DNA from: Flavobacteriaceae bacterium
Lineage (GTDB): Bacteria > Bacteroidota > Bacteroidia > Flavobacteriales > Flavobacteriaceae
DNA: 64,000 bases
NCBI GenBank assembly: GCA_021648265.1
Contig: JAKITD010000006.1
Location: 1 to 64,000, forward strand
Direction of reading: 5' to 3'
A model generated the notes under the pieces. That model was not told where the DNA came from. It saw nothing but the letters and a program-made list of their open reading frames with translations, and searched no databases. Shown piece after piece: positions 24,566 through 31,229 of the stretch (positions within the stretch are counted from its first letter, which is position 1; each line of letters starts with the position of its first letter). A program made the position numbers and the translations under genes.

Positions 24566-24600
24566 ATTTTGTTTATTTCTGTCGATTTTTTTTAATTTTG

Positions 24601-24708
24601 CCTACAGCCTACAGCCTACAGCCTACAGCCTACAGCCTACAGCCTACAGCCTACAGCCTACAGCCTACAGCCTACAGCCTACAGCCTACAGCCTACAGCC
24701 TACAGCCT
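24601..24708. repeat. Tandem heptamer repeat (CCTACAG, 15 copies)
   Basis: Fifteen exact copies of cctacag (24601-24705) plus a partial cct fill the gap between the panB stop (24710-24712) and the RluA-family start (24565). All copies are identical, which suggests recent expansion. Copy-number changes would alter the panB-rluA spacing without touching either frame. Confidence 0.97.
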
Positions 24709-27052: not shown

Positions 27053-27149
27053 GAATTATTCTGTGATATCGAGATTTTATTTTATTGAAAAGAAATGGGT
27101 GATGAGTATAAAAAACTTATCAACAAAACAGAAATAATCCAAAATAAAA

Positions 27150-27186
27150 TGGAAATATTCCATATTTTTGAACTGTGGAAATATTC
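27150..27186 (+). promoter_or_regulatory. Repeated TGGAAATATTC, candidate operator of umuDC
   Basis: tggaaatattc occurs at 27150-27160 and again at 27176-27186, 26 bp apart. The first copy extends to ggaa-ata-ttcc, a small inverted repeat; the second overlaps the GTG start of the UmuD-like gene. Paired copies at this spot suggest a regulator site. The regulator is unknown. Confidence 0.4.
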
Positions 27187-27543
27187 AATTCAGGAAAACT
27201 CAATAAGGTGAAAAACAGGCACGCTCCCGAAGTGTCCAAACAAACAGGCTTTCCAAGTCCTGCCACGCATTACGCAGAACCGAGTATCGATTTACACAAG
27301 GAGTTAATCAACAATAGGGATGCGACTTTTTTTGTTCGGATTGATGGCGACGAACTTTCAGAATTTAATATTTTAGATAAGGATGTTTTATTGATAGACC
27401 GTTCCTTAAAACCTAAAAAAAATGACTTGGTATTGGTGGTGATGGAAGGAGAGTTTCGAGTTATTAAATTCCCAGAATCACCTTTAGAAACCGAATTTTT
27501 CCTTTGGGGATTAATCAGTTATATAATCCATTACGCCCGATGA
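27175..27543 (+). CDS. umuD: UmuD-like S24 protein lacking the catalytic dyad
   Basis: A 122-residue homologue of UmuD, the DNA polymerase V accessory subunit; [20 protein letters not shown] matches the UmuD/LexA pattern after the cleavage site. Compared by eye with E. coli UmuD, the numbering falls in register: the cleavage-site Cys24 is Thr (TG), catalytic Ser60 is Glu (GDEL instead of GDSM), and catalytic Lys97 is Ile (RVIKF). The segment between the Lys region and the last strand is also about 15-20 residues shorter. Self-cleavage is therefore not expected. It starts at a GTG and its TGA overlaps the umuC ATG by 4 bases (ATGA), so the two proteins are translated together. Confidence 0.78.
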
Positions 27544-28835
27544 TAGCTTTGGTAGATTGCAATAGTTTTTATGCCACTTGTGAGCAGGTTTTTCGTCCCG
27601 ATTTATGGGGAACACCTGTGGTGGTGCTTAGTAATAATGATGGTTGTGTGATTGCTGCGAATAAGGAAGCAAAAGCAATTTCAGAAATCCCGATGTTTGA
27701 GCCTGTTTTTAAAATAAAGAAACAATTAATAAAAAATAAGGTGACATTTTTCTCCTCTAATTATACCTTGTATGGTGAAATGTCACAACGAGTCATGAAT
27801 ATTTTGGGCGCCTTTTCTCCGCAGGTAGAAATTTATAGTATCGATGAAGCTTTTGTAGATGTTTCAGGAATGAAATACCGTTCGTTAAACAATTTAGGAC
27901 ATCAAATGAAAGATAGAATTTATCAATACACAGGACTTCCTGTAGGTGTAGGAATCGCACCAACAAAGGTCTTGGCAAAACTGGCAAATAAGATTTCTAA
28001 AAAGAAAATTTCAGAAAATAAGGGTGTTTTTGTGATAGATTCCGAAGAAAAAAGAATCGAAGCTTTAAAATGGGCAGACGTAAAAACGGTTTGGGGAATT
28101 GGTAGTAAACACGCAAAACGATTAAAAAACATCGGAATTTTTACGGCGTATGAATTCACCCAACTTCCGGAAGAATGGATTCGGAAAAATATGTCGGTGG
28201 TTGGTGTTCGTATTTGGAATGAGTTAAAAGGGATTCCGAGTATTGAATTCAAAACAATGCCCAAGCCAAAACAGGGAATAGGTACCGCAAAATCATTTGG
28301 TAAAAAGTTGGAAGATTTGGGGATGATTCAAGAGGCTTGTTCGTATTATATAAGTGAAGTGAGTGAGGTACTTCGGAGTCAGAATTCCTGTGCAACCTAT
28401 CTTCAAGTATTTTTGCATACCAATTATTTTAGCGATCGAGATAAGCAATATTCCAATAGTATTACGGTAACTTTAAGTATTCCTACGAGCGATACATTCA
28501 CGTTAATTTCGGAAGCCAAAAAAGCATTGAATACCATTTACAAACCCGGTTATCGATTTAAAAAAGTGGGGGTTTGTTTAAGTGGAATAATTCCGAGGGA
28601 ATACGTACAAGGAAACTTATTTGCACCACCACATTATAATAATAGCAAGCTAATGAGTGTCTTTGATACTATTAATCAGAAATACGGAAAATCCACGTTA
28701 TTTTCAGGATTGGTAGGCACTCGAGTAAAGGAATGGGAATTGATAAAAGAGGGTCGGAGTCCGCGATATACTACGCAGTGGGGAGAGTTGTTGGAGGTTC
28801 CTTCGGTACGTTCCGATTCTCCTATAAGGTTTTGA
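27540..28835 (+). CDS. umuC: Y-family DNA polymerase, UmuC
   Basis: Translesion DNA polymerase of the UmuC (pol V) group, 431 residues. Catalytic acidic residues are in [15 protein letters not shown] (D6) and [11 protein letters not shown] (D101, E102); the UmuC-typical [15 protein letters not shown] and helix-hairpin-helix [12 protein letters not shown] follow. The frame opens earlier (27504), but the ATG at 27540, overlapping the UmuD stop, matches the family start. The final codons SPIRF and stop lie inside a 27-bp palindrome, so the extreme C-terminus is repeat-derived. With its UmuD partner it would form an error-prone bypass polymerase. Confidence 0.93.
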
Positions 28836-30965: not shown

Positions 30966-31176
30966 GCAGAGAACCAATTTTGCTTTTCAAAATTGTGCGA
31001 ATCGCTTATACTGAGCGTAGTCGAAGTATCTTGCAGAGAACCAATTTTGCTTTTCAAAATTGTGCGAATCGCTTATACTGAGCGTAGTCGAAGTATCTTG
31101 CAGAGAACCAATTTTGCTTTTCAAAATTGTGTGAATCGCTTATACTGAGCGTAGTCGAAGTATCTTGCAGAGAGCC
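30966..31176. repeat. Three tandem 67-bp repeats after dnaK
   Basis: Units begin at gcagagaacc at 30966, 31033 and 31100 (exact period 67), with a partial fourth at 31167. Copies 1 and 2 look identical; copy 3 differs by gtgtgaa for gtgcgaa. Each unit contains an 8-bp hairpin (caattttg-ctttt-caaaattg) and the dispersed string ctgagcgtagtcgaag. There are no spacers of unique sequence, so this is not a CRISPR array. Confidence 0.95.
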
Positions 31177-31177
31177 T

Positions 31178-31229
31178 ATTCCTGCGTCCATGTGCCACTG
31201 AAGCTTTAGCGGAGGAGCAAGGCAGGAAT
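31178..31229. repeat. Inverted repeat attcctgc / gcaggaat
   Basis: attcctgc (31178-31185) and gcaggaat (31222-31229) pair across 36 bases that include gtgccactgaag and gcggaggagcaagg. It resembles another dispersed palindromic element placed directly after the 67-bp units. Confidence 0.55.

Follow-up and report, generated by a model that had tools for sequence, protein, structure and literature searches.

A flavobacterial clade of UmuD-like proteins that lacks the Ser-Lys dyad and lies beside umuC under putative SOS operators

Cleavage of UmuD constitutes a second lock on pol V. Several forms of the E. coli protein bear on what happens once this lock is altered. UmuD 3A, an engineered variant changed at positions 14, 17 and 18 (T14A L17A F18A), is described as a mimic of UmuD′; the non-cleavable UmuD8 S60A is reported to reduce mutagenesis greatly and to make E. 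coli UV-sensitive via a copy-number effect; and UmuD18, likewise non-cleavable, whose arm is shorter and moves more freely, shows low but detectable mutagenesis (PMC5342242). Natural departures from the E. coli arrangement exist as well. HumD of phage P1 is a UmuD′-like protein that needs no cleavage, and a LexA site is annotated upstream of its gene. UmuDAb of Acinetobacter, found in a lineage without LexA, is a UmuD that departs from the usual role (PMC8565304). In Bacteroidetes, a group of non-canonical LexA proteins is associated with the operator GGA-N5-TCC: the repressor purified from S. agarivorans uses this motif to bind the umuD promoter, the genes of type IV and type V polymerases are those most strongly induced by mitomycin C, and the umuDC operon is listed in the network of this LexA group (PMC8565304). 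The accessible part of that account makes no mention of a UmuD without catalytic residues (PMC8565304). While the SOS repressor is thus already known, a UmuD form without the dyad was not found in the literature searched, which consisted of open-licence papers.

Such a form is encoded in the window, i.e. the whole stretch of 64,000 nt of flavobacterial DNA that was analysed. The umuD-like gene (27175..27543, forward strand) starts with GTG and encodes a protein of 122 aa with a predicted S24/UmuD′ fold, in which the catalytic residues are absent and the N-terminal arm of 24 residues, encoded by codons 1–24 (27175..27246, forward strand) and ending at T24, is retained in a remade form. Its stop codon overlaps by 4 nt the ATG of umuC (27540..28835, forward strand), the 431-aa product of which contains the IMS, IMS_C and DUF4113 domains, the DCNSFY signature and a SIDE motif. 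Residues 23–103 of the window protein align with residues 23–103 of E. coli UmuD without a gap (phmmer, E 2.4e-15, PDB 8gmt chain), and one residue numbering can therefore be used for both proteins. This alignment confirms the reading of the first-pass annotation that T24-G25, E60 and I97 take the places of C24-G25, S60 and K97 of E. coli UmuD (the 8gmt chain has A at 97, and the UmuD′ chains 1umu and 1i4v have K there). The C-terminal part is indeed shorter, as had also been noticed: the protein has 122 aa against 139 aa in E. coli UmuD, i.e. 17 residues fewer, and the alignment gap locates a missing segment of about 20 residues between approximately residue 102 and the last strand. The idea of a ‘pre-shortened’ UmuC partner is not supported, however, since this segment is near the C-terminus, whereas the N-terminus is not shortened and has kept an arm of conserved length.

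Family models assign the protein to S24 at large, PF00717 (Peptidase_S24) being matched at 40.4 bits over a curated cut-off of 23.3 and being the only Pfam match at E up to 1. The nearest NCBI family is that of autoproteolytic UmuD (NF007621), for which the score of 86.7 bits remains under the cut-off of 110 and of which neither the Ser60-Lys97 dyad nor the C/A-G scissile bond is found. The HumD model NF051876 gives 57.1 bits against a cut-off of 120. An AlphaFold2 monomer model built from a 31-row alignment reaches a mean pLDDT of 75 and a pTM of 0.58, with blocks of residues 51–120 at 83–93 and the arm at about 50, where it carries little information. UmuD′ is the best PDB match of this model (Foldseek E 2e-4; VIA Z 9.8), the superposition on 1ay9 giving a Z of 9.8 and an rmsd of 2.7 over 76 residues.

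The locus thereby shares with E. coli UmuD/UmuD′ the predicted fold, the numbering to residue 103, the overlapping umuC and an SOS-type operator. It differs, as do its relatives described below, in that the scissile C/A-G, the Ser60-Lys97 dyad and a stretch of roughly 20 residues preceding the last strand are missing and the residues that dock the arm are replaced. HumD, by comparison, starts at the cleavage product (MGFPSPA), has no arm and by eye keeps the Lys, whereas the clade has an arm of 24 residues. UmuDAb has an N-terminal DNA-binding domain and self-cleaves (PMC8565304), while the window protein carries the arm in place of such a domain and probably does not self-cleave.

A family search across 299 Flavobacteriaceae genomes returned matches in 173, and 32 of them carry a full-length relative of the window type, the sequences of which were read. 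Another 11 came from the 16 loci found by scanning the contigs of named genomes, where one duplicate and four ordinary, dyad-bearing Chryseobacterium proteins were set aside. The clade set comprises 43 relatives (32 + 11), nine of which are close to the window; their start codons were assigned by script, and all 43 come from Flavobacteriaceae or Flavobacteriales genomes. Rows L039 (the same sequence as L004), L095 (the same as L053) and L048 (missed by the motif, with GDSL and K seen) were dropped. Ordinary UmuD proteins for comparison were 38 family members and 26 from the order sample (64 together), as well as three from Chryseobacterium. At E 1e-30, one of 247 genomes in a class sample was matched, namely the window's own. 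In the order sample, 92 of 296 genomes were matched; G000, G042 and G125 exceed 160 bits, all other listed matches reach at most 105 bits, and among these weaker matches 26 were counted as sequences.

With columns 24, 60 and 97 excluded, the 43 relatives form one side of a branch with an SH-aLRT of 99, in a quickly built tree from 145 columns, many forks of which are unresolved and the long-branch warning of which falls partly within the dyad-less group. All 43 have T24-G25. Position 60 carries E in 14 members, G in eight, A and S in seven each, another residue in six and a gap in one, while position 97 carries I in 19, K and L in five each and another residue in 14; Ser60 and Lys97 thus occur in 7/43 and 5/43, respectively, and together in 0/43. 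Among ordinary proteins, both Ser and Lys are kept in 38/38 family members, in 26/26 from the order sample and in 3/3 from Chryseobacterium. Because these losses recur in 43 relatives of one clade, they are more than chance. The check suggested earlier, whether the E60/I97 form is a conserved clade, hence comes out positive as regards the clade and its loss of the dyad, but E60 (14/43) and I97 (19/43) themselves vary. A dyad relocated to Ser62 and Lys98, which the first-pass annotation had set beforehand against its own reading, was looked for in the clade alignment and is absent: no Lys column is invariant (the best is K8, at 81%), position 62 drifts, and position 98, which is R in 63/64 ordinary relatives, is R, K, E or Q in the clade. 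Since the clade has neither a Ser-Lys dyad nor an A/C-G bond, RecA-stimulated self-cleavage is very unlikely for these proteins, in line with what had been proposed for the window protein; sequence alone could hardly make this loss more certain.

Two other residue combinations were seen. In a subclade of seven (L028–L032, L051, L052), most members keep Ser60 and have lost Lys97. The Chryseobacterium UmuDs L047, L048, L049 and L050 keep both Ser60 and Lys97, and G-A, G-S or Q-A replaces the scissile C/A-G, so that the Gly after the scissile bond is lost and the dyad retained.

Clade proteins measure 119–126 aa, compared with a mean of 146 aa in 34 ordinary family members. Among the nine close relatives, the whole gene has a median dN/dS of 0.11, its arm one of 0.20 and its core one of 0.09 (16, 31 and 17 of 36 pairs, respectively, having a dS below 1.5), and 21 columns are invariant in 31 aligned clade sequences. 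Drift at positions 60 and 97 is what a relic would display, that is, a gene drifting after the loss of its role while UmuC acts alone or with another subunit; yet dN/dS is around 0.1, the 21 columns do not vary and umuD overlaps umuC by 4 nt in 34/43 loci, which leaves a relic barely credible. A pseudogene is ruled out by dN/dS and conservation. Judged by its sequence, the dead UmuD is not decaying and has kept its predicted fold, its UmuC neighbour and purifying selection.

The coupling to umuC, as would befit an accessory subunit of pol V, extends from the window to the whole clade, in which umuC follows umuD in 43/43 loci. Clade UmuCs form a group of their own (SH-aLRT 100, 42 of 43 used, with L007, of 147 aa and cut by the locus end, left out), and 43/43 of them contain DCNSFY, the ordinary ones having mostly DCNNFY. 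It had been suggested that the window protein could be a pseudo-protease regulator. Its target would then be something else, with RecA or the repressor as proteins for which it might be a decoy, and partners of live S24 domains might in principle be bound by a dead one too, but the invariable umuC neighbour and the separate clade of partner UmuCs speak against this, and nothing beyond the dead site itself speaks for it, making such a role highly improbable. In ordinary family members, umuC comes after umuD in 7/38. Where ordinary loci were extended upstream, umuC was found before umuD in 16/19 (L151–L163, L166, L168, L169), an order that is the reverse of that in E. coli and the window; in L156, another ORF sits between the two genes.

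The arm is changed as well; its positions were numbered backwards from G25. Hydrophobic residues at both 17 and 18 occur in 0/43 clade members versus 30/38 ordinary family members and 23/26 proteins from the order sample (53/64 together), and in 31/43 clade members neither position is hydrophobic. At position 22, I, V or L is found in 64/64 ordinary relatives but a hydrophobic residue in only about 2% of the clade, and the mean net charge of the arm is +2.9 in the clade as opposed to −0.7 in the ordinary family members and +0.1 in the order sample. The window protein has N14, A17 and P18. It is in this respect similar to UmuD 3A, which likewise combines a full-length arm with removed docking residues and has Ala at 17 (PMC5342242); UmuD 3A is a laboratory mutant, however, whereas the clade is natural and has lost its active site too. 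Mainly because the docking residues are gone, a constitutively active form is preferred over a locked inactive form. In the latter case, full-length UmuD would persist uncleaved and with its arms down, would restrain UmuC or act on the replicative polymerase and the clamp, and would never become UmuD′-like. Non-cleavable E. coli forms are less mutagenic, above all UmuD8 S60A (PMC5342242), so that UmuD at full length might act as a brake instead, and the arm is not only full length but also under selection (dN/dS of about 0.2). Yet the arm has nothing left at 17 and 18 with which to dock as in ordinary relatives, the dyad and its adjoining segment are gone, and a brake co-made with its polymerase from a damage-type operon would make little sense. 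We consider a locked UmuD unlikely.

Within the stretch Q23-T24-G25-F26, T, G and F are found in 43/43 clade members and Q in 41/43. Position 24 is T throughout the clade, compared with A in 62/64 and C in 2/64 ordinary relatives, and H32 is present in 43/43 clade members and 0/64 ordinary relatives; S28, A30, L40, T51, F94, W111 and G112 are fully or almost fully shared. By these counts, few stretches of the protein are as constrained as the former cleavage site, although it appears unable to serve as one. The invariant T24-G25 would be the target if the S24 repressor or a housekeeping protease cut the protein in trans at or near this bond, such that activation by cleavage survived, and cleavage in trans within a heterodimer is possible for UmuD of E. 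coli (PMC5342242). Nevertheless, Thr before the bond would be unusual because ordinary relatives have A or C there and the repressors have A-G in 25/25 cases, H32 points to a new structural role of the stretch, and no second UmuD was seen in the window genome (92% complete). Processing in trans is thus quite unlikely.

Upstream of the gene, the window contains the palindromic operator GGAAATATTCC (27151..27161, no strand assigned), an instance of the published GGA-N5-TCC motif (PMC8565304). A further site, AGAAATAATCC (27130..27140, no strand assigned), with the first G changed, is probably an imperfect upstream operator, the operators of relatives being 18–22 nt apart. Downstream of the palindrome, TATTTTTG (27163..27170, forward strand) conforms to TAnnTTTG and ends 4 nt before the start codon, as would suit a probable leaderless transcript. 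We take TAnnTTTG to be the Bacteroidetes −7 element. GGA-N5-TCC occurs within 130 nt upstream of the start in 36/43 clade umuD genes, and two or more copies in 26/43, versus 2/34 ordinary family UmuDs (34 of the 38, four having been added afterwards) and 0/30 others; the shuffle expectation, from moving single bases in a way that preserves base make-up only, is 0.135 against the observed 36/43. Both of the ordinary genes preceded by an operator (L065, L070) come from genomes in which the dead form is present as well. Neighbouring clade operators are usually spaced by 19 or 22 nt, the one nearest the gene begins 23–25 nt before the start codon in 30/36, and TAnnTTTG ends 3–5 nt before the start in 35/43 clade, 3/34 ordinary and 0/30 other umuD genes. 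Because this element is so close to the start codon and the operator is placed just upstream, the umuDC mRNA is probably leaderless and starts at the edge of the repressor's site. The spacing between TAnnTTTG and the start codon is exactly 4 nt in 32/43 clade genes.

A single GGA-N5-TCC site is weak evidence because [AT]GGA-N5-TCC[AT] occurs 10 times in the window; the weight lies in placement and recurrence. In the window's own genome, the combined operator-promoter pattern has one match, as does its reversed control, and a 13-base regulon pattern has 17 forward and 18 reverse matches versus 8 and 9 for the reversed control. As the sites examined are mostly inside genes, we do not extend the regulon past umuDC and the gene of the repressor. 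In the 16 umuC-first ordinary loci, neither GGA-N5-TCC nor CTAA-N5-TTAG was found within 300 nt of the umuC start (0/16).

Only two S24 proteins were found in the window genome, the umuD-like protein and a repressor of 254 aa (G000:C48), which is encoded elsewhere, combines HTH_3 with Peptidase_S24, contains AAAGYP, GDSM and LVKKL, and has its own GGA-N5-TCC site before the start of its gene. With its CI-type HTH, S24 domain, A-G bond, Ser, Lys and operator, it has the sequence features of the Bacteroidetes non-canonical LexA of the GGA-N5-TCC group, so that repressor type and operators are as in that account (PMC8565304). In sequence, the sites at umuDC match that of the published SOS repressor. 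Strong repressor orthologues occur in 25/32 clade genomes, with weak matches only in three and none in four, and 25/25 have A-G, Ser (GDSM in 24, GESM in one), Lys and, in the 130 nt upstream, one or more operators. Within the clade, 23/25 genomes that have the repressor also have the umuD operator, as do 2/7 that lack it (Fisher p 0.002, uncorrected for relatedness, three of the seven repressor-less genomes being only 64–76% complete). It is absent in 7/43 clade genes, and two of those seven genomes carry the repressor. In the above-mentioned subclade of seven (L028–L032, L051, L052), the operator is absent in 6/7 and a strong repressor orthologue in 4/7 genomes. A Salegentibacter genome (L046) also carries dead UmuD.

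Across the family sample, the repressor is found in 25/32 genomes with dead UmuD, in 15/141 with any other UmuD-type match only (taken by match rather than all read) and in 74/126 without a match. The first two fractions differ with a Fisher p of 7e-14, where, for at least four of the 15 (G111, G243, G256, G280), no match is stronger than 1e-5 and the repressor itself may be what was matched. On a DnaK tree of 90 genomes, the association is mostly one split in the family, and an independent-pairs test of repressor versus dead UmuD gave no support (four pairs, median p 1). No co-evolution is claimed because the association follows family phylogeny and the independent pairs are unsupportive. Together, operators in 36/43 clade genes and an intact S24 repressor strongly suggest that damage control of umuDC acts at transcription; that pol V is controlled at transcription only, as the first-pass annotation had it, would be a further step.

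The best reading of these data, to which we give a probability of roughly 0.6, is that dead UmuD is a constitutively UmuD′-like partner of UmuC and that damage control has moved to transcription. An arm without docking residues would stay off the protein body and would leave the dimer always arms-up—the state produced by cleavage in E. coli—whereby UmuC would be active once made. Damage would be sensed once, upstream: RecA filaments would trigger self-cleavage of the XRE-S24 repressor, which would free the leaderless umuDC promoter, meaning that the self-cleaving switch would have been transferred from a polymerase subunit to its repressor. More tentatively, and with somewhat less than an even chance of being right, a regulatory swap may have taken place across the lineage, in which the self-cleaving SOS repressor took umuDC, UmuD became permanently activated, arms-up and without self-cleavage, and the arm and former cleavage site (K8, H16, QTGF, THY) were rebuilt as a new contact surface for UmuC, the clamp or DNA. 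As an evolutionary rule, such a swap is suggestive only. A natural clade that lacks UmuD cleavage but has the arm offers a test of whether cleavage does more than remove a docked arm, and it also lets one ask if transcriptional control alone restrains a mutagenic polymerase.

As to the origin of the gene, coordinates of both umuD and dnaK were listed for 25 clade genomes, and in 14 of these (counted by eye) the two lie within 10 kb of each other on one contig; vertical descent is favoured for this reason. A mobile or phage origin was considered and rejected: tblastn of the window protein against plasmids and phages gave, among the matches listed, identities that are all below 60%. Each of the 20 listed plasmid rows carries the annotation umuD, and the 20 phage rows are mostly UmuD-like, HumD or unannotated. 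Scanning viral contigs for the pattern of the clade alignment returned 15 loci with identities of at most 38%.

Finally, the window contains two tandem repeats. One is a perfect 7-bp repeat of GCCTACA with 15.6 copies (24600–24708), flanked by what, judging from the translations, are a pseudouridine-synthase-like gene and a panB-like gene. The other, a 67-bp unit present 3.2 times with 97% matches (30966–31180), lies directly after the dnaK-like gene.
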